A DNA stretch of 40,991 bases, taken from IMG/VR virus record IMGVR_UViG_3300021083_000035, positions 1-40,991 of that record, one strand, 5' to 3'. A model generated the notes under the pieces. It was not told the DNA's origin and did not search any database. It saw only the letters and a list, made by a program, of their open reading frames with translations. A program made the position numbers and the translations under genes. The DNA comes from a virus. This document shows, in pieces, positions 3,664-26,838 of this stretch. Within the stretch, counting starts at the first letter, position 1, and each line of letters begins with the position of its first letter.

Positions 3664-3927
3664 TCATAGTCCAAATTTCAATTTTAAGAAGACTATATCT
3701 TCTTGCGGCACATTTTTCAATACAGCATACGATGGTGTTAGAATTCGAACTCTTCGTTGTGGCGACTGATCTCCATATGTGAAATCATATTGATCTTCAC
3801 TTAAATTGTTCACACACCATTCATAAATCTGTATATAATTTCTATCATGAATTTCCTGTGAGAATTTCCCCGGAATAAGATACAGTTTGTGTGTCTTTGG
3901 AAACAGTCTTCTGAAGAGTGAAGCCAT
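3664..3927 (-). CDS. small protein distantly like the KYGHIY family, 87 aa
   Basis: The ATG at 3927 overlaps the TGA of the upstream gene (TGATG), so I prefer MASLFRRLF to the longer frame. The C-terminus EDIVFLKLKFGL resembles the EDLxxFILKYGH ending of the array at 9.8-12.6 kb and the KFGD ending at 16764, so it may be a diverged member. Function unknown. Confidence 0.65.
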   Translation of the reverse strand: MASLFRRLFPKTHKLYLIPGKFSQEIHDRNYIQIYEWCVNNLSEDQYDFTYGDQSPQRRVRILTPSYAVLKNVPQEDIVFLKLKFGL

Positions 3928-4517
3928 CAATGTATCTCGCCTTTCAATTTCTTGAATACATATTGTTCGGCGAGCCCCGGCCAATCGTCAATCCAAATTG
4001 TGACTGAATACTGGAAATTATTACCGCCGCTGCCGGTGCCTGTGTGAATGTCGATAAATTTCCAAATATTGCTGACGCCGAAATGTTTGTGATTTTCGAA
4101 AACACCGGACATATTTCCAATATAACCCGGATACCCCCGCGGAAGATCTGTTGATCCGAGCCAGTTTGTTTTCTTTCCGTTTGGGGCACTATGAGTATTG
4201 CTGGCATAAGTATTATGTGTTGTTTTGAGAGAAAATTTCTCAAGCTTGCCGCGGAATTGACTATGAAAATTCAAAGCATTGTAGAATTTGACTATTTTCG
4301 AAAAATTAATCAAAATCCATTCTTCAAATTCTTCAATGCCTGTAATCTTTTCTTTCTCAGACTTAAACCAGGATTCAAAATCACGGCGTTTTCGATTGTG
4401 TTTGCGATTATCTTTCTTTCGTGCTCGTAAGTCTTTCAGATGAGCAATATACTCTTCTTTCTGATCTAACTGAAATAGCTTCTTGGTAAACCGGCACTGA
4501 TATATTTGAATTTTCAT
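3927..4517 (-). CDS. hypothetical protein, 196 aa
   Basis: Not recognised. The N-terminal third is highly basic (KDLRARKKDNRKHNRKRRDF), followed by a glycine/asparagine/histidine-rich half (GSTDLPRGYPGYIGNMSG, HTGTGSGGNN). It uses in-frame CGG twice as arginine (4491, followed by T; 4137, followed by G), unlike most neighbours. It overlaps the downstream gene by TGATG and follows the AAA+ ATPase by one base. Confidence 0.75.
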   Translation of the reverse strand: MKIQIYQCRFTKKLFQLDQKEEYIAHLKDLRARKKDNRKHNRKRRDFESWFKSEKEKITGIEEFEEWILINFSKIVKFYNALNFHSQFRGKLEKFSLKTTHNTYASNTHSAPNGKKTNWLGSTDLPRGYPGYIGNMSGVFENHKHFGVSNIWKFIDIHTGTGSGGNNFQYSVTIWIDDWPGLAEQYVFKKLKGEIH

Positions 4518-8265: not shown

Positions 8266-8734
8266 TCTTCTTCCTTTCGGTTTGTAAAGCAGTTCTCATT
8301 TGTAATTCATCTACAAACGGACCCTTATGATTGTACAATTCTAAAGTTGATAGTTTTGGATTTAAGGATGGCATCCATCCTTTTGGGTATTCTAAGCAAT
8401 AATATCCAGCAGAGAAATATATCTTACTACCTTCCTTCTTTACGAATAGTGGTAGAGAATTGCCTTCAATTTCAACTTCGATTGGCGAATCATAATCTAC
8501 AGGAAGGCCTTTGATGAACTTCTCTATATTCCTTTGCTGAAATACTGGTTCAATAATATGACGGAATATGTCTTTGTTAAAATGAATATTTAATTCTTCT
8601 TTGGACTTAAATTCATATTTCACACTCTTCATCAATAGAGTGAATTGTTCTTTACCTTCGTTTAGCATCCCGATCCTTTCATTGTCGTCAGACAATACAA
8701 TCCAGGATTTATCAGTAATAGTCTTTAATTTCAT
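8258..8734 (-). CDS. conserved T4-like phage protein, 158 aa
   Basis: Starts MKLKTITDKSWIVLSDDNER. The pattern KGLPVDYDSP...LPLFVKKEGSKIYFSAGYY...PSLNPKLSTL is, from memory, a conserved uncharacterised protein of aquatic T4-like phages. It overlaps the 5' nuclease gene by 4 bases and is probably co-expressed. Confidence 0.7.
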   Translation of the reverse strand: MKLKTITDKSWIVLSDDNERIGMLNEGKEQFTLLMKSVKYEFKSKEELNIHFNKDIFRHIIEPVFQQRNIEKFIKGLPVDYDSPIEVEIEGNSLPLFVKKEGSKIYFSAGYYCLEYPKGWMPSLNPKLSTLELYNHKGPFVDELQMRTALQTERKKNA

Positions 8735-9777
8735 TCGAGGTCTTGATAATATTTAGAGTTGAACAATGGGGTGAATTGCTGAGCATTGTTTGATATTTTT
8801 GGCAAATTCCACCTTGTGCAGAATTGCAAGAATGCCATTCCTATATTTGGTGCTGAGATATTCTTTCTTGAAACTTGATTTACAATAATATTCTCACACG
8901 ACTCTTTCACACTGTCTGGCTGAGCAGTTAGGTCAATTAGTATTCGATTTCTCTCATAAAGATCCTTTACAATATGGGTCTTTTGGTCAATGTCAACCCA
9001 AGATTGATTCATGAAATTATTCCAATCAAACCCTTTCACATCTTGATTATTATATGCTTCTCTGATCCCAATCTTATCTTTGGTTCCTTTTTCACGAATA
9101 CCGGGATAGGCACTGAATATATAATCAGACGTATCACCACGAATGATTTTCATAAATAATGCGTATCGAAACCAATCCTTTTCTGGTTTGAAATTTGGAT
9201 CTACCTTAGGTGAAGAAATCTTACCATCTTTGACAACGAAACTCAAATTCTTATCTCTGTCATCAGTAATTCCAACATCAGTTAATAGAATATCTTTAAC
9301 TGGATCGTAGATTTTTACATTTGGCGCGAGCAATTGATAGAAGTCACTATCGGAACTGATTAGAATATGATCGTCATCTGGGTGTAATCTAATCCAAGTA
9401 GCAATCATATCATCTGCTTCTGCTCTTGGATTCTGAAGAACAGTCATATTGGTTTTCTGATCAAGAAATTCTACCAAATCATCAAACGCCTCAGTGAGTA
9501 GATCCCTGTCTTCTTTTTCTTTCTCTGTCTTTTGCGCGAATATAACTTTCCTGGATTTCTTGTAATCTTTGTAGATATCATATCGCCACGAATAACCTTC
9601 GGTGAAGAATACCGCATGAGTTCCATTGAAACGATTCCATTCTTTCTTAAGACTATATAACATTAGATGGAATGACAATCCTATCATTCCATCTATACCT
9701 GCGGCAGGATTAACCTGATGTATCATTCTATGGAACAGATTGTGTCCGTCCATGAGTAGAAAGGTTGATTTATTCAT
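8731..9777 (-). CDS. rnh: T4 RNase H-like 5'-3' exonuclease
   Basis: The 348-residue protein has the FEN/5' nuclease order: LLMDGHNLFHR (first metal aspartate), DYKKSRK helical-arch region, EADDMIATW (acidic pair), SSDSDFYQL (metal site) and IIRGDTSDYI (helix-hairpin-helix region). T4 RNase H removes RNA primers from lagging-strand fragments. A strong AGAGGAACAACA precedes the ATG. No CGG codons. Fits with polymerase, clamp and clamp loader elsewhere in the window. Confidence 0.9.
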   Translation of the reverse strand: MNKSTFLLMDGHNLFHRMIHQVNPAAGIDGMIGLSFHLMLYSLKKEWNRFNGTHAVFFTEGYSWRYDIYKDYKKSRKVIFAQKTEKEKEDRDLLTEAFDDLVEFLDQKTNMTVLQNPRAEADDMIATWIRLHPDDDHILISSDSDFYQLLAPNVKIYDPVKDILLTDVGITDDRDKNLSFVVKDGKISSPKVDPNFKPEKDWFRYALFMKIIRGDTSDYIFSAYPGIREKGTKDKIGIREAYNNQDVKGFDWNNFMNQSWVDIDQKTHIVKDLYERNRILIDLTAQPDSVKESCENIIVNQVSRKNISAPNIGMAFLQFCTRWNLPKISNNAQQFTPLFNSKYYQDLE

Positions 9778-9792
9778 TGTTGTTCCTCTTTT

Positions 9793-9987
9793 TTATTTTG
9801 GTCCATAGATATGTCCGTATTTCAATATAAAGGCTAAGAGATCTTCTCTATCCATAAAATGAATTGTTCTATTCACTGGAAAGTGCTTGGCACCTGGAAA
9901 TTCAATTCTCAAAATTTCGCATAATGTAGCAATCTTTTCAAAATTCGGATAAAGAGCGGTTGTTCTAAAATAAATTATCTTTTCCAT
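9793..9987 (-). CDS. KYGHIY-family protein, last copy of the array, 64 aa
   Basis: MEKIIYFRTT..., core CEILRIEFPGAKHF, ending EDLLAFILKYGHIYGPK. The start lies inside the 3' end of the upstream copy (23-base overlap). Function unknown. Confidence 0.75.
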   Translation of the reverse strand: MEKIIYFRTTALYPNFEKIATLCEILRIEFPGAKHFPVNRTIHFMDREDLLAFILKYGHIYGPK

Positions 9988-10162
9988 AGATATGTCCGTA
10001 TTTCAATGTGAAGGCTAAGAGATCTTCTCTATCTATAAAATGGATTATGTCCTGCAACCAGTGATACTTCGACCCCTGGAATTCGGCATTCAATAATTCC
10101 TGTAATTTATTACCTTCTATGAGGGTAGCTACAAACCGAGCACGAAACGAATTACTTGACAT
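9965..10162 (-). CDS. KYGHIY-family protein, 65 aa
   Basis: MSSNSFRARF..., ending EDLLAFTLKYGHIYGKDNLF. The codon for the second arginine is CGG followed by T (10136) and must be read as a normal triplet for the gene to exist. The ATG lies within the 3' end of the 207-aa gene upstream. Confidence 0.75.
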   Translation of the reverse strand: MSSNSFRARFVATLIEGNKLQELLNAEFQGSKYHWLQDIIHFIDREDLLAFTLKYGHIYGKDNLF

Positions 10163-10776
10163 TTCTCTTACCTTTCGGGACTATTTCACCTTCTTGTGAA
10201 TTTAACGCATATTCAGAATCTTCAGTAAAAGTTCCTACACCGTCATACGATTCAAGCGCCACTGCTCTGCATACTTCACTAAACCAAAGATTCACAGTTT
10301 GGTCTGGTTTCATAGCAATATATCCTGCGTCTTCAAGCATCTCAATGAATTTATCATTCCAGTCAAGTTCAAAACTACCTTCTTCGGCTTTTTCTGTTCC
10401 AAATTCTAACTTGACCACTGCCACCCACGGTTCGTCATTAATGGTGGCACTTTCTTTTTCATAGTTAAATCTTGATATCTTATTCTCTTTGTAATCCAAT
10501 TCAAGCAATGCGATTTTCTTTTTCTTCTCATCCTGAATTAGATTTGCCAATCCTCTTTGATATTCACCTAATGATATTTTGAGATATTTAAATTCTATGT
10601 CAAGCAATTTACCTTGATAAACATTGGCCGGTAATGTATCCTTGTGAATCTCGAGTAGTCGAATATCTAAATCATATCCTTCTAATTCATATTCTGCTTT
10701 CAGCGTTTCTCGAGTTTTACCCTTTGTGCCGCCAAGCATAAGGATAGAATGAGAATGGTATGAGTGGTTTTTTCAT
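10152..10776 (-). CDS. conserved phage protein read through a CGGC +1 site, 207 aa
   Basis: The obvious frame starts only at 10739 and has no ribosome site. The true start is probably the ATG at 10776, which overlaps the upstream TGA (ATGA) and reads MKKPLIPFSFYPYAW; it then meets TGG CGGC ACA. Skipping the C at 10731 gives W-G-T and joins GTKGKTRETLKAEYELEG in one 207-residue protein. The rest is helical and charged, ending EIVPKGKRNVK. From memory a similar MKP...PFxF...WG start occurs in aquatic T4-like phages. Function unknown. Confidence 0.75.
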
Positions 10777-11021
10777 TTGAATATATGTCCGTATTTAAGA
10801 ATGAAGGCTGTTAAGTCTTCTTGGTTAGTGAATGTAATTCTGGAGAATGGATATTGCATATGATCATATGGATTCCCTTGTGTTTGATATATTGCACAAT
10901 CTTCGCGGCTTGATCCCGGAAATTCATCATTTAGAATTTCTATTAATTTGTAAATGTCTGACTGTGGTGGTTGCCACCACAGGACGTTTGTATTAAATAT
11001 ATATTTATCTTCATTTGCCAT
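10773..11021 (-). CDS. KYGHIY-family protein, 82 aa
   Basis: MANEDKYIFNTNVLWW..., core LIEILNDEFPGSS, ending EDLTAFILKYGHIFK. Its stop overlaps the start of the 207-aa gene (ATGA). Confidence 0.75.
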   Translation of the reverse strand: MANEDKYIFNTNVLWWQPPQSDIYKLIEILNDEFPGSSREDCAIYQTQGNPYDHMQYPFSRITFTNQEDLTAFILKYGHIFK

Positions 11022-11208
11022 AGATATGTCCGTATTTCAATGTGAAGGCTACTAAATCTTCTTCATTCACAAAAGTGATAATATCACTTGCATAAGTATA
11101 TTCTGCACCAGCGAACTCCTGATCTAAGACAACCACCAAATCTTTGACATGAGGCAAATCACCAACCTGCCGGTATATTGGCCTTGTGAGATATTTATTC
11201 TCTACCAT
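11011..11208 (-). CDS. KYGHIY-family protein, 65 aa
   Basis: MVENKYLTRPIYR..., core LVVVLDQEFAGAEYTY, ending EDLVAFTLKYGHIYGK. The ATG is inside the GHIYG codons of the upstream copy; no Shine-Dalgarno sequence, so translation coupling is likely. Contains one CGGC arginine triplet (11170). Confidence 0.75.
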   Translation of the reverse strand: MVENKYLTRPIYRQVGDLPHVKDLVVVLDQEFAGAEYTYASDIITFVNEEDLVAFTLKYGHIYGK

Positions 11209-11422
11209 AGATATGCCCATATTTCAAAATAAAGACTGTGAGGTCTTCGGATTCCCGAAATCGTATTTTACATGTGACATATTTCACATCACGCGTCTTC
11301 AATAATTTCCATTTCGATTTAGGGAATTCGTCATGGATTAACTTTAGCAATCGTGGTAGTCTATATCCACGATTGTAGAATTCTCTTGTTTCATACCGTT
11401 TTATTTTACTTGACATCATCAT
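11195..11422 (-). CDS. KYGHIY-family protein, 75 aa
   Basis: MMMSSKIKRYETREF..., core LLKLIHDEFPKSKW, ending EDLTVFILKYGHIYGRE. Uses CGG as arginine at 11396 (followed by T) and 11255 (followed by G). Confidence 0.75.
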   Translation of the reverse strand: MMMSSKIKRYETREFYNRGYRLPRLLKLIHDEFPKSKWKLLKTRDVKYVTCKIRFRESEDLTVFILKYGHIYGRE

Positions 11423-11621
11423 AGATATGCCCGTATTTCAGAATAAATACAACCAAATCTTCCGGGGTTTCGAATTTGATTCTATAGAATGGTAGAATAT
11501 AACTATCCATATACTCCCATTCAGCATTGGCAAATTCATTTCTGAGAATTTTCAACAACTCGTCGGTGGCATATTCCCAAATATTCAGGACACGAGTCTC
11601 GAAGATCTTATCTAGGCGCAT
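11406..11621 (-). CDS. KYGHIY-family protein, 71 aa
   Basis: MRLDKIFETRVLN..., core LLKILRNEFANAEWEY, ending EDLVVFILKYGHIYDDVK. Start chosen by analogy with the other copies, at the second ATG of ATGGGCATATCTATG. Confidence 0.75.
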   Translation of the reverse strand: MRLDKIFETRVLNIWEYATDELLKILRNEFANAEWEYMDSYILPFYRIKFETPEDLVVFILKYGHIYDDVK

Positions 11622-11805
11622 AGATATGCCCATATTTCAATATAAAGATTACCAAATCATCACGGTTGGCAAAGGTAATTACATCTTCTGTAAATTCATA
11701 AGTAGCACCCGGAAACTCTCTTTGAAGGATATCAAGTAAATCACCAACACATGGTAGCACGGCATGGTAGTATATGCAACAAGTCCGATACTTATTATCT
11801 TCCAT
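11608..11805 (-). CDS. KYGHIY-family protein, 65 aa
   Basis: MEDNKYRTCCIYY..., core LLDILQREFPGATYEF, ending DDLVIFILKYGHIYAPR. Overlaps both neighbours. Confidence 0.75.
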   Translation of the reverse strand: MEDNKYRTCCIYYHAVLPCVGDLLDILQREFPGATYEFTEDVITFANRDDLVIFILKYGHIYAPR

Positions 11806-12040
11806 AGATATGCCCATATTTCAATACAAATACCAATGCATCATCTTTATCTTCGAATGAAATTAGGTCACATTGATAGGAATATCTGGCACCCGGAAAT
11901 TCACGGTTCAGAATATCAAGTAAATCCTTCTCTAGTTCCAGTTTTTCGTCCCATTGGCGCAGCGTACGAAATATAGCTCGCGTATAGAATTCATATCGTT
12001 GGTAAATTGCCGTAGTAGGTGTCGTGGTAGATGTGGTCAT
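11795..12040 (-). CDS. KYGHIY-family protein, 81 aa
   Basis: Threonine-rich start MTTSTTTPTTAIYQRYEF, core LLDILNREFPGARYSY, ending DDALVFVLKYGHIYGR. Starts inside the KYDHIY codons of the upstream copy. Confidence 0.75.
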   Translation of the reverse strand: MTTSTTTPTTAIYQRYEFYTRAIFRTLRQWDEKLELEKDLLDILNREFPGARYSYQCDLISFEDKDDALVFVLKYGHIYGR

Positions 12041-12221
12041 ATTTAAGAATGAATGCGACTAAGTCTTCTTGATTTGTGAAAGTGATTATATCGTCCATAA
12101 ATTTATAAGTGGCATCAGGAAATTCTCTTCGAAGTATATCCTCAAGCACCTCCGCGCTGGGTCTATTATATTTTTCATATTCTAAAAAGGTAGTTTGATA
12201 TTGAAGATTAGTTTTTATCAT
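11991..12221 (-). CDS. KYGHIY-family protein, 76 aa
   Basis: MIKTNLQYQTTFLEY..., core VLEDILRREFPDATYKF, then EDLVAFILKYDHIYHDTYYG with a C-terminal extension produced by the overlap. Confidence 0.75.
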   Translation of the reverse strand: MIKTNLQYQTTFLEYEKYNRPSAEVLEDILRREFPDATYKFMDDIITFTNQEDLVAFILKYDHIYHDTYYGNLPTI

Positions 12222-12429
12222 AAATGCCGCCATATTTTAAAATAAAGAATGAAAGATCTTCCTCACAACTGAAAGTAATTAAATCCTCTTGATAAACATA
12301 CATAGCATCAGGAAATTCTCTTTGAAGTATATCCTCAAGCACACACGCATCGGGGGCATCAGGAAAAATGCTTCGAGGCATTCCTTGACGCACCAGATAT
12401 ATAGTTCTATATTGAAGACATGGATTCAT
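12208..12429 (-). CDS. KYGHIY-family protein, 73 aa
   Basis: MNPCLQYRTIYLVRQ..., core VLEDILQREFPDAMYVY, ending EDLSFFILKYGGIYDKN. Very close copy of the next gene upstream, so a recent duplication. Confidence 0.75.
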   Translation of the reverse strand: MNPCLQYRTIYLVRQGMPRSIFPDAPDACVLEDILQREFPDAMYVYQEDLITFSCEEDLSFFILKYGGIYDKN

Positions 12430-12641
12430 TCGAAGTGTCTTTTAAAGATATCGCCATATTTTAAAATAAAGAATGAAAGATCTTCCTCACAACTGAAAGT
12501 AATTAAATCATATCGATAGACGTACATGGCATCAGGAAATTCTCTTCGAAGAATACCCTCAAGCACAAAAGCATCGGGGGCCTCGTCGGTTCCTTGACCA
12601 CGCACCAGATATATAGTTCTATATTGAAGATTAGCATTCAT
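12426..12641 (-). CDS. KYGHIY-family protein, first copy of the array, 71 aa
   Basis: MNANLQYRTIYLVRGQ..., core VLEGILRREFPDAMYVY, ending EDLSFFILKYGDIFKRHFE. ATGA overlap with the next copy. Confidence 0.75.
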   Translation of the reverse strand: MNANLQYRTIYLVRGQGTDEAPDAFVLEGILRREFPDAMYVYRYDLITFSCEEDLSFFILKYGDIFKRHFE

Positions 12642-12662: not shown

Positions 12663-13604
12663 TCAAGTTCCCATTCCATTGCCAAGTAGATAAAGGTGAG
12701 CACGAATACAAACATTGTATCCACGAGCGATAGTTTCACGTGTAATTTCAGCAGCGTGTTCATTCTGCATTTCTACATCGGCACCGACCGGCATAATCCA
12801 CACTGGCCAGTCCACACCTTCTTCACGAAACATCTTTGTTGCTCTATCGACTTCGCCCCATGTTCGTGTGCTACCATCAACAACATATTTCAATTGACCG
12901 TGACTACTTTCATATGCGTATTTTGCTACAACATCGGGTTTGATAGCATCATCCCATTTTTCACCACTCGCGTGAAGTTTTGGACTTACGCTCCAAAACA
13001 ACTCATTCGCAGCGCGTGATTGATCCATCATTCCGCCAACTACTTGATATCGGTAAAATCGTTCTTCGAGAAATGTTTGGAAGAAGTCTTTCATTGGTCG
13101 TGTACCATTTGTTTCGATTGTAATTTTCACAGGTGCGGTTTTCAGCTCGGCCAATGACTCAACAATATCAACTATGCCTCTCTGATTCATCATCGGTTCA
13201 CCACCTGTGAATACTAAATGTGATTCTTGTTGTGATCCTTCGTGAACAAAATGTCCGGTTGGGTTATACATAGTTTTGTTAAGTTCAATCAACTTCTCGG
13301 CGATTTCCGGCGCAGTATTACTATGTGCAAGATGGCCAAATTTCTTCGCCCAAGAATAAGAACTATCACACCCAGTATGAAAGACTGGCAAATCTTCCAA
13401 TTTTGTAATCTTTTTCACATCAGCATCAAGGTAAGGTAATGTCCAAGTGGATGGATCATTGATGTCTTTCTGACTGAAACCCTTACATTCAAAATTACAC
13501 GACCAAAGACGAACCCACAGACTTGGTTTTCCACAATAAGTGCCTTCACCTTGAAAACTGGAGAAAATTTCACTATATTTAATCTGCCTAATTGCCTTAT
13601 CCAT
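12663..13604 (-). CDS. queE: QueE-like 7-carboxy-7-deazaguanine synthase
   Basis: The 313-residue radical-SAM protein begins YSEIFSSFQGEG, the QueE start, followed by SLWVRLWSCNFECKGF with two of the cluster cysteines and HTGCDSSYSW with a third, a spread arrangement seen, from memory, in phage QueE. FTGGEP and TIETNGT are the SAM-binding strands. QueE makes 7-carboxy-7-deazaguanine from the product of QueD. With QueD (17033) and a DpdA-like enzyme (21118) it points to 7-deazaguanine in phage DNA. QueE may also affect host cell division, as in E. coli. Ribosome site AAGGTAATACA; no CGG codons. Confidence 0.9.
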   Translation of the reverse strand: MDKAIRQIKYSEIFSSFQGEGTYCGKPSLWVRLWSCNFECKGFSQKDINDPSTWTLPYLDADVKKITKLEDLPVFHTGCDSSYSWAKKFGHLAHSNTAPEIAEKLIELNKTMYNPTGHFVHEGSQQESHLVFTGGEPMMNQRGIVDIVESLAELKTAPVKITIETNGTRPMKDFFQTFLEERFYRYQVVGGMMDQSRAANELFWSVSPKLHASGEKWDDAIKPDVVAKYAYESSHGQLKYVVDGSTRTWGEVDRATKMFREEGVDWPVWIMPVGADVEMQNEHAAEITRETIARGYNVCIRAHLYLLGNGMGT

Positions 13605-16763: not shown

Positions 16764-17036
16764 TCAATCTCCAAATTTAATCTTAAAAATTAGTGCGTCA
16801 TCTATATCAAAGAATCCAAAGAAGCAACTGAAGGTCTCGGTCAAGCCACTGATATCAACAATTTCCCAGTCATCATTTATCTTGTCTTTATGACATCTAT
16901 AAAAGGTTGCAGATGATATCCCGGATTCGCAAATCCATTTATTACCATCTAAAATTTTAATCCACCCATCTTTACTACATTGAATTCTAATGACTTCTTT
17001 TATTCCGGGTGGCATTAATTTCTTGGCTGTAGTCAT
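16764..17036 (-). CDS. KYGHIY-like family protein (KFGD ending), 90 aa
   Basis: MTTAKKLMPPGIKEV..., with two cysteines in ...WICES and FYRCHK, ending DIDDALIFKIKFGD, which aligns with EDLVVFILKYGH of the array. ATGA overlap with queD. Confidence 0.65.
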   Translation of the reverse strand: MTTAKKLMPPGIKEVIRIQCSKDGWIKILDGNKWICESGISSATFYRCHKDKINDDWEIVDISGLTETFSCFFGFFDIDDALIFKIKFGD

Positions 17037-17468
17037 TTAGATATGGTTCTTAGACTTTCTAAACCTTGTCGCAGTGTTTCATCATACAAATCTACTGGTG
17101 AATATTCTACAATAGCACCATTGATGCCTTCTTCAGACACGTCAACTTTGATTTTCTGATCCGGGTACTTATCCTTGAGTATGTCTACGAGACCATCGGC
17201 CAACATCTCACAACTCTGATTATTCAATTCTAAGGCGCCAGTTTCATACTGTTGTTCGATCCACCTTCTCAACTGAATAAACTCAATGTCACGATTCAAG
17301 TGCGATACTTCAACCCATACCTTAAAATGAAAGTAATGAAAGTGACGAGTTCCGAGATGTGATACATCTAAATAATCACCGTGTCTTGAATTTTGGATCC
17401 GTGGCTGCTTCGGGGAAGCAGTGATAGCCTTCTTTTTGAAATGTAGTATATACAAATGTTCGTTTCAT
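17033..17468 (-). CDS. queD: QueD-like 6-carboxytetrahydropterin synthase, read through a CGGT +1 site
   Basis: The start at 17468 has AAGGTGAAAA before it and overlaps the upstream TGA. It reads MKRTFVYTTFQKEGYHCF ... FKT, meets ACA CGGT GAT, and with the C at 17381 skipped gives T-G-D-Y and 144 residues in all. The HFHYFHFKVWVEV segment matches the zinc histidines of QueD (LHGHxYxVEV), and the end VDVSEEGINGAIVEY matches VWExPTSxAEY. QueD and QueE act in succession in 7-deazaguanine synthesis. The family call is from motif shape, so moderately sure; the frame restoration is clear. Confidence 0.65.
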
Positions 17469-17689
17469 TTTTCACCTTTTAGAATTTCTACCAATGCGTC
17501 ATCTATATCAGAATATATCCACGTATCATACTCGTATTTTCTTGCTACTCTTTCTAGCCAAACTATCTCACAAGTAGGACATTCAATGTTTAGAACTATT
17601 GGCCTCCAAGCAAACCAAGAATGCTACTGGGATTTAATTTCAAAACTTCTCTTGAGTTGCTCCTCATACGATTCGATTTTAAATCTCAT
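17465..17689 (-). pseudogene. KYGHIY-like family gene with an in-frame TAG at codon 22
   Basis: The ATG at 17689 overlaps the upstream TGA and the stop overlaps queD, so the gene slot is intact (74 codons). Codon 22 is TAG (17624-17626). The same frame then continues with normal protein, including ECPTCEIVWLERVARKYEYD and the family ending SDIDDALVEILKGEK. Either a nonsense mutation or readthrough. Other genes here use TAG as a true stop (16504, phoH). Confidence 0.6.
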
Positions 17690-18473: not shown

Positions 18474-18710
18474 TTATAGTTGTGTTGGTGCTATTCCTGT
18501 TGCTAGGATGAAGATCATAGCATCTTCCTTATCCTTGATATAAATTCGATAGAAAGGATACTGAGAATATAAAAATTGATTAATTCTCCATCTGTCTTTC
18601 TTTGGGCTACCATATAGCCTTCGACATTTTTTAGAAATTCCTTTAAATTCTGATTTTTTTATGGTAAATCGATATGGAAAACCAATTGCTCTATTCAGAA
18701 CGAATTTCAT
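18474..18710 (-). CDS. KYGHIY-like family protein, 78 aa
   Basis: Basic N-terminus (KKSEFKGISKKCRRLYG), ending YRIYIKDKEDAMIFILATG, which corresponds to ITFxxxEDLxxFILKYG in the array. ATG overlaps the TGA of the next gene upstream. Confidence 0.6.
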   Translation of the reverse strand: MKFVLNRAIGFPYRFTIKKSEFKGISKKCRRLYGSPKKDRWRINQFLYSQYPFYRIYIKDKEDAMIFILATGIAPTQL

Positions 18711-18886
18711 AATATCAATTTGAATACAATAAGATCGTCTTCATCTTTGAAATAGAAAGTAGTGATGAAAAAACAATCCCAAAACTGCCATCTTCCATTG
18801 TCTCCGAATTTCTCATTGCATCTTTCTTTTAGTCGCTCGTCCACTTCCTCATATACGTAGAATACGGATATTGGATTTTCAACCAA
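18707..18886 (-). CDS. KYGHIY-like family protein with TTG start, 59 aa
   Basis: The frame fills the gap between the glycosyltransferase stop and the next ATG exactly. It begins with TTG directly after the TAA and reads (M)VENPISVFYVYEEV..., ending TTFYFKDEDDLIVFKLIL, the family C-terminal pattern. No ATG is available. Confidence 0.6.
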   Translation of the reverse strand: MVENPISVFYVYEEVDERLKERCNEKFGDNGRWQFWDCFFITTFYFKDEDDLIVFKLIL

Positions 18887-23894: not shown

Positions 23895-26838
23895 CTATCG
23901 TTTCGTGAAATCAAACAAAGTTTCTAAATAGTCTCTTTCCTTATTAGTTCTTTCTAAATCCCAATTTAGACACCCAATCAAATTTTTCACTTTCTGATCT
24001 ACACCCGCAGCCATCATAATATCACTATCAAATGGTAATTCCAAAAACCAATCCGGTAAATGGTTCTCGTCCACTGGATAGGCAATGCTGGTTAAGAGAC
24101 TGTCAACTGTTGTCTTTAATTTACAGACTATCACTTTTTGACCATCGATAATTCTCATTGAGTGTTGATCGTGGTTTGTTTCACACATCTTGTTCCAATT
24201 CAAGCTTGCTCGAACGTGTCCTGGCATTGTGGCGGACCCGGATTTGATCCCATTAAATTTATTGGCATAGAAGTCTTCTTCTTTCTTCTTATAGAATGTC
24301 AACTTGTTCACTGCCTTTGGTGACCCTTGCTGCCACGGTTTCATATCTTCAAATTTAGTTTTGAATTCTTTGATTTTCTTTATGACACAATCTTCACCTT
24401 TGTCAGTTAAAGTGTCGAGCAGAATTTCGGATAGAAATTCTTGAACGAACTTTGGTGTGTCTGCTCGTTTCAAATCTAATCCCATTGCTTTGACGGCACC
24501 AGCCTTTCCATTTACATCTTTTCGGATACCATCTTTATCATACATCAGCATAGCATATCTCTTCTTCTTGATAAAGATTCCGGCCTGTGCCACTACTTCT
24601 CTGGAACTGGCAATTACACCTGTGCTCCTGGATTCTGGAACATTTAGTTTCTTATTTAAGAAATCTGGAAATGTTGCCGACACTTCTTTGGCTACATTGT
24701 TATACAAATCAATCACGTCTTCTTTTGTCCAAGCAATATTCCCTTGTTCGACATCGTCTTTTACCATTGGCCAAACGGAGAAGATAGAGGAATCTGTGTC
24801 GCCGTAGACCATTGATTCACCATAATGGTCATATTCGCCAGTTACGAACTTATTCGTTTGAGCTGCCATATGTTTCGTAATTGTTCTGCCTGATAAGGTG
24901 ACTGATTGACCAAGTCGTTGATCGAAATATCTGGAGCCTGAATTTAATAGAGCACCGGTACAGACTGTTTAGCGAGATTTTTTTAACGGCTTGTTTTTTG
25001 TCCCAAAACCCAATATATTTCTTCAATTCTTTCTGATCTCTATGAATTGCCTTACCATCTTTGATATGAAGATGGTGTTGATTCATATATTGAACTATAT
25101 CTTCCTTAATGCCTGTTGAGATAAGTTTTGATAATTTAGATGGATTGTAAGATTCGTGCTCATTGTAAGGATTAGCCTTGACTTCGATATCAGAAATATC
25201 TTTGTTAGTGAATAATTCTTCAGGCACTAACACACCTTCTATCTTTTCATTATCTTCGAGACCTTGATAATTTACCATTATCTTCTGAAGTTGTTTTCTT
25301 TCACTATACCATCTTGATAACAATCCCGGAATTACACCTTCAATGTCAGTTCTGAAGATAGTTCCGTTAGCACTAATACACCAACCTTGTTCACTTTCAA
25401 AAATAATATCTCTTAATTCGGCACCAGTAACTTCAAATACATCACCATTTGTCATATCTAAGATAAGTTTTTCACTTATGTCATTATCGTAAAAATATTC
25501 CATTTCAAGAACATTAAATCGGTCATTCCACCAATGAGCAAAATCGTTAGTTCCGCCTTTAGATTCCCATTCCAGTAAAGCCTTGTTTGTTCGGTCTAAT
25601 CTGATTTGGCCTACAATGGTCTCGGGGCTCATATTGAAAGCGCGAATCACAGATGGATACAGTGATTTCATATCTGTTGTTCCGATCCATCTATGGAAGC
25701 CTATCTTCGGTGTCGCAACCCATCCACCTGCAGCACGAGTTTCTCCATTACTGAACTGTGACCTATCCATCACAATCATATTCCTGTTGTGTGCTTCGAT
25801 CATAATTGCCTGATCAGTCACAGCAACTGCACCAGCAGTAGCCATCAATGTGACACAATTGGAGTGAGCAATGGAACTTGCCAAATCAATGAACTGTAGT
25901 TTCTTATCTATCTTATCAAGCAGCAATGTATCTTGAATGTTGTATTGAAGGAATTTCTTATAGTCACAGTTGAATAACTCATCAAGTGTGCCTTCGTATG
26001 GAATCTTCGTATCGCCGACTTCAAGTTCAGCAATGGCGTTCAATGCATAACTATGTCGTTCCTCATAGTTATATTTCTTATATAATTCCATATAGTCCAT
26101 ATGAACTCGACCTATCAAGTCATAGGTAGGAACTTCTTTACCGCCACGATCAATCATTCGAGCGTGTGGTTCGAGATTCCACAAACATAATTTTCTTACT
26201 TCGTGGCGACCTAAGACTTTCTTCATTCTGTTGATAAGATATGGAATATCATAACATCCTGAATTCCACCCACTTAATATATCAGCATCCTCGATGATCT
26301 CTATGAACAGCTGAAGCATTTCTAATTCAGTCTTACAAATGATAGTATTACCAACCTCATCAGCAATACTTTGCGCTTCTTCGGCTGTGATAGTTTCGGG
26401 TGGAACCGATATACAGATAATCTCATCCTTCCATTGACAATGAACTGATATGGCAGTAATGAAATTGTTTGCTTCACTGGCGCCGCTCCACCCCAACTCT
26501 TTATCGAAGCTTGTTTCTATGTCGAAGAATGCTACGTGTGGTGTAGGTAGTTCGGAATTTTGATAATTCTGTTCGAGACAACGGTAAACTGGATTTACAT
26601 TTGTCTCCCACACCTTGACATTATGACTTAGTGATTTAATTGTCTTAAATCGTTCTTCAATAGATTTTGGAATAATCTTCTTTAATGCGTCACCATAGAT
26701 AGACTTATGCTGACCTCGTGCGTCACTAACGAAGAAATGAAGATCCGGCTGAAATTCTCTGTAAATTCTTTGACCATTGATTCTTTCAACTACCTTTACC
26801 GTTTCGGCTTCGCCGACCTTTTTTATTATAGTATGCAT
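23895..26838 (-). CDS. family B DNA polymerase, read through a CGGT +1 site in motif B
   Basis: About 980 residues. Exonuclease motifs AFFDIETSFD, SGWNSGCYDIPYL and YNIQDTLLLDKI, and polymerase motifs DMKSLYPSVI (A), KISLNSLYG (B) and VYGDTDSS (C) are all present. The frame breaks at TAC CGGT GCT inside motif B; skipping the C at 24957 restores NSLYGALLNSGSRYFD and the C-terminal third. Without it, motif C and the thumb are lost. The N-terminus may begin earlier: AGGAG is 7 bases before an ATT at 26848 that reads YIDAYYNKKG, then a second CGGC (C at 26815) leads into GEAETVKVVER. From memory, several T4-type polymerases start with MY(I/V)DA. Otherwise ATG at 26838. Confidence 0.9.

Follow-up and report, generated by a model that had tools for sequence, protein, structure and literature searches.

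In bacteriophage T4, recombination amplifies tifA and thereby allows escape from toxIN (PMC9391042). In Bacillus phage G, a lineage-specific expansion of a zinc-ribbon protein has reached about 35 copies (PMC7824862). ATGA stop-start overlaps with translational coupling are a general feature of operons (PMC2174442). The array described here lies in a window of 40,991 nucleotides (the whole stretch of DNA analysed, positions 1 to 40,991 of IMG/VR virus record IMGVR_UViG_3300021083_000035), and the phage that carries it is probably large and lytic. As with tifA, a small accessory gene, putatively involved in host interaction, appears to have been amplified by recombination. However, the T4 case is a laboratory segmental amplification, whereas the window copies are old and diverged and have overlapping frames; the likeness drawn here is one of process. 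Like the zinc ribbons, the array represents the expansion of one small protein family inside one large phage, but the protein is a different one, and an overlapping-start chain is not described in the passage considered on phage G. The ordinary operon overlaps have a coupling geometry identical to that of further chains presented below (contigs L024, L178, L187 and L177), while differing in that here one family's motif repeatedly supplies the junction and that the window overlap is longer and lies inside Tyr-Gly codons.

The array occupies the minus strand from 12641 down to 9793, between genes encoding QueE (12663-13604) and a 5'-3' exonuclease (8731-9777), and consists of eleven paralogues of 64-82 aa arranged head to tail. 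A search of the record with a single member as query recovered all array copies. Copy 1 (71 aa, 12426..12641) ends in KYGDIFKRHFE, and copy 2 (73 aa, 12208..12429) shares 74% amino acid identity with it, with a tree support of 98/97. These are followed by copy 3 (80 aa, 11991..12233, alternative start at 12221), copy 4 (81 aa, 11795..12040), copy 5 (69 aa, 11608..11817, for which a second in-frame ATG at 11805 is likelier), copy 6 (75 aa, 11406..11633, second ATG at 11621), copy 7 (75 aa, 11195..11422, a basic protein of pI 10), copy 8 (69 aa, 11011..11220, second ATG at 11208) and copy 9 (82 aa, 10773..11021), whose tail KYGHIFK is encoded by motif codons without an ATG. Copy 10 (65 aa, 9965..10162), preceded by a Shine-Dalgarno-like sequence, and copy 11 (64 aa, 9793..9987) complete the array. 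All eleven copies have the tail (E/D)D(L/A)xxFxLKY. Copies 9 and 10 are separated by a non-family gene of 195 aa (10152..10739, minus strand), absent from the earlier note, which matches phrog_13349 'virion structural protein' (E 1e-25). A homologous N-terminus of this gene (MKKPLIPFSFYPYAW..., 10738-10776, minus strand, starting at 10776) is out of frame relative to its counterpart in the related contig L009; this frame break is either a real mutation or a sequence error.

All nine family-to-family junctions overlap, by 4, 26, 50, 23, 26, 17, 26, 11 and 23 nt in succession, an arrangement expected of translationally coupled genes. The eleven overlapping paralogues of the earlier note are thus confirmed. 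At eight of the nine junctions the next ATG lies within the KY(G/D)(H/G)IY codons, the exception being the junction of copy 1 to copy 2, a 4-nt ATGA overlap that is the only one of its kind between window family members. In several copies a second in-frame ATG follows the first (MGISM...); the N-terminal alignment favours this second one, which, taken as the start, would give those copies overlaps of 11-14 nt. Copy 11 keeps the motif ATG with no paralogue downstream. This left-over ATG opens a 10-codon ORF (9774..9806, minus strand) whose TGA overlaps the ATG of the exonuclease.

The presence of an ATG in the motif is not in itself a special device. TAT accounts for 77% of the Tyr codons in the window phage, so that an ATG is expected by codon usage alone at 77% per Tyr-Gly, and the motif ATG follows from Tyr-Gly together with this preference. 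What is remarkable, therefore, is that at almost every junction this ATG serves as the start of the next paralogue. The frequency of ATG in Tyr-Gly codons also suits a rival reading, in which the locus is an ordinary compact phage operon, with overlaps arising from genome compression and coupling, and with copies made by plain tandem duplication in which the motif has no special role. ATGA is the typical co-directional 4-nt overlap in prokaryotes (PMC2174442). Against this reading stands the overlap of every family junction in the window, and we regard it as a serious contender that nevertheless falls short of an even chance.

Pairing with the Shine-Dalgarno region at family starts was weak, mostly -0.9 to -3.2 kcal/mol, with some first-ATG alternatives weaker still, whereas 36 other genes averaged -3.9 kcal/mol and the random median was -2.1. 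Only copy 10 (-4.0 kcal/mol) and copy 3 at its alternative start (-4.8 kcal/mol) paired more strongly. This is in line with the earlier statement that most junctions have no Shine-Dalgarno sequence. Promoter-like sites in the array region were not above those in shuffled sequences. The weak sites and the universal overlap fit translational coupling, and the array is probably coupled in this way. The array and QueE would share one transcript and be read together, and termination and re-initiation at the overlaps may pass translation down the array.

The closest relative of the window is contig L009, whose QueE and exonuclease are 74% and 76% identical to those of the window. In its slot, three family copies precede a 195-aa gene homologue, which is followed by one more ORF and then the exonuclease. 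In the more distant L057, QueE is followed by a 66-aa ORF that lacks the family motif and then by the 195-aa homologue, a further ORF and the exonuclease, and no family member was detected in this QueE-exonuclease slot. The comparison of copy number between related phages, proposed earlier, thus gave 11 (window), 3 (L009) and 0 (L057). The L009 copies retain F.xKYG, but their neighbouring starts lie elsewhere (overlaps of 1, 35 and 4 nt). The KYGHIY start therefore belongs to the window lineage and not to the whole family, and the proposal that the DNA for KYGHIYG gives the next start holds for eight of the nine window junctions while failing at copy 1 to 2 and in L009. The earlier note had also considered that homologues without the overlap would tell against its model; the L009 copies partly correspond to such a case, as they lack the KYG start, yet they overlap or abut, which is also what a compact operon would produce with no motif start at all. 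The same contig bears on whether the array could be an artefact of assembly or gene calling. The source is a metagenomic virus record, and there are two probable frame or stop problems in the vicinity. However, eleven intact, diverged ORFs share a conserved protein motif, and the independent contig L009 carries homologues in the same gene order, so that an artefact is extremely improbable.

The farther apart two copies lie along the array, the lower their DNA identity (Mantel r=-0.35, P=0.007; P=0.013 for protein), a signal that may come largely from copy pairs 1-2 and 10-11. In copies 10 and 11, the 3' 64 nt, spanning the motif, are 94% identical. Synonymous differences between these two copies amount to 3.2/15.8 in the 3' part versus 17.4/20.8 (saturated) upstream (Fisher P=2e-4). 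A near-identical 3' tract next to saturated 5' halves points to recombination of copies at their 3' ends, and its coincidence with the motif argues against a compact operon in which the motif is idle. A tree of the eleven window copies and the three L009 copies resolved only copies 1 and 2, so we do not assert that every duplication is younger than the divergence from L009. Of the earlier idea of duplication by recombination at the repeat, the 3' motif tract and the greater likeness of neighbours are in favour, while the birth of self-registering genes is still a model; 'self-propagating' is a fair model for the origin of in-frame copies. The array itself is real, copy-variable and recombining.

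Other member-like ORFs lie outside the array on the minus strand. Four of the five diverged members listed earlier have the same kind of end motif. The ORF at 3664..3984 has the tail VFLKLKFGL and a TTG start, and is linked to the family by its motif only. That at 16764..17036 (tail ALIFKIKFGD) is assigned by motif and position only, with a counterpart at L009:6932-7300. Those at 18474..18710 (tail AMIFILATGIAPTQL) and 18707..18886 (tail LIVFKLIL) have likely counterparts at L009:4947-5177 and L009:4745-4969, respectively. Profile support for the diverged members was weak (E 0.25 for 18474 and 0.9 for 18707) or absent, and the L009 counterparts of 16764, 18474 and 18707 are positional. The fifth, at 17465, is unconvincing as a family member, its ORF (17468-17689, minus strand) being broken by an in-frame TAG at 17624-17626; an uninterrupted counterpart of this ORF is present in L009:6235-6564. 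The DNA polymerase of the window (23895-26838, minus strand) is represented by two overlapping ORFs, one for the N-terminal and one for the C-terminal portion of phrog_262.

The window family probably belongs to an unnamed superfamily with the tail 'DAxxFKL(K/T)(F/W/H)', whose members are strung into longer chains in several large phages. Membership was defined here as a C-terminal [DE][AL]xxFxL(K/T) ending a protein of 60-110 aa, which the window family has. In the longer chains, the last codon and TGA together make the ATGA that is the next start; this ATGA directly after the motif, common in the superfamily, occurs in the window at copy 1 to 2 alone. Contig L024 (296 kb) has about 30 genes in 8 kb, mostly with DAAxFKLTHL-like tails, in which CTA-TGA supplies the next ATG, and 19 of 27 family-like ORFs are linked by the 4-nt overlap. 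In L156, from a 369 kb contig, AFKLKFGV-like tails form GTATGA junctions and 6 of 8 ORFs are so linked. The L178 chain has 15 genes with junctions of exactly -4 in 12 of 14 cases, and the L187 and L177 chains have about 14 genes each. L024 and L156 were reached through QueE or a profile match, independently of overlap; the other three were found by an ATGA-containing pattern, so their overlap rate is biased. Junction scans of IMG/VR gave further contigs with several matches each.

The background of 4-nt overlaps in these phages is already 11%, as the compact-operon explanation would have it, but the longer chains reach about 70-86%, far above it. Moreover, in L024 the terminal Leu codon before TGA (CTA or TTA) ends in A in 13 of 14 cases versus 2 of 14 for interior Leu (P=7e-5), a skew toward keeping ATGA that tells against the compact-operon explanation. 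At the codon level, the motif showed homogenisation in L178 and L187 but not in L024 or L177, and only to a small extent in the window; this mixed result means that it is not a general property. Several solutions of this kind exist, of which the KYGHIYG device is one.

Among named phages, only Sinorhizobium phage Phosso (PV764938.1) was recovered, through one L218 member. It encodes about nine small 'hypothetical' proteins whose tails resemble FKLxW, and 4-nt overlaps link some of their genes, but these form short dispersed runs and no single long chain, and their membership is by motif only. The family C-terminal motif also occurs in proteins of some 157 aa, perhaps fused or extended members, encoded at L189:1487-1960 and, in coordinates of the minus strand of that contig, at L197:2977-3462. 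In marine phage contigs L063-L069, a protein of roughly 110-160 aa encoded downstream of the exonuclease ends in ITF.D.DDAxWFRLK and is possibly a distant single-copy relative of the family.

Profile comparison of the window family with the L178/L187 family gave a probability of 94% over 41 columns, and with L024 76% over 23 C-terminal columns. AlphaFold2 models of window copy 5 and of a member of another chain have the same order of strand-helix-strand-strand-helix, at moderate confidence (pLDDT 75 and 70, respectively). The predicted fold is therefore beta-alpha-beta-beta-alpha, with the conserved motif as the last strand and helix. No significant match to the family was found in Pfam, NCBIfam, PHROGs, PADLOC, PDB sequences, PDB folds or viral folds; Foldseek matches (ribosomal, RRM, ACT-like and T4-like Ip6) had E values above 0.05 throughout and were set aside. 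Queried directly with the window family, IMG/VR yielded no confirmed relative by profile or by pattern; relatives were obtained only by way of the adjoining genes for QueE and the exonuclease. In tblastn searches against named phages, members from the window, L024, L017 and L178 gave nothing and those from L156 nothing usable. The open-access literature searched contained no description of the family or its architecture.

The paralogues might also be virion or nucleic-acid-binding proteins, structural or packaged, in the manner of the phage G zinc ribbons, which are proposed to be transcription factors or structural DNA-binding proteins (PMC7824862). The match of the interrupting 195-aa gene to a virion structural PHROG would suit this role, as would the weak, non-significant RRM- and KH-like fold matches. 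Most array copies are acidic, however, no fold match is significant, and many of the neighbours are metabolism and replication genes; we consider such a role improbable.

Taken together, these features suggest, with about an even chance of being right, that small accessory proteins of about 65-80 aa have expanded into an array whose genes are probably coupled and recombine at their 3' ends, and whose products have variable, putatively host-binding N-termini. Unequal recombination between the repeated 3' ends would add or remove copies and, since each unit carries at its end the start of the following one, the product would be a complete in-frame gene. The C-terminal strand and helix would form a fixed structural core, with codons also constrained to keep the next start. 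As the weakest step, different host targets may be bound by the fast-varying N-terminal two thirds. By analogy, counter-defence or host takeover would be the most likely single function, a tentative assignment that we hold below an even chance. It is less likely than not that the arrays represent a widespread, undescribed architecture, an expandable, self-registering host-interaction library in which motif codons are the next start and recombination of any two copies yields an in-frame coupled gene.

Much of what is unannotated in large phages consists of dense arrays of tiny genes, and a family tail followed by ATGA is a simple DNA signature for locating them. The array also offers a defined protein set for screening against bacterial defences. 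If the end of a unit is the next start, such arrays could grow and shrink with translation intact, which would allow a rapid gain of phage proteins.
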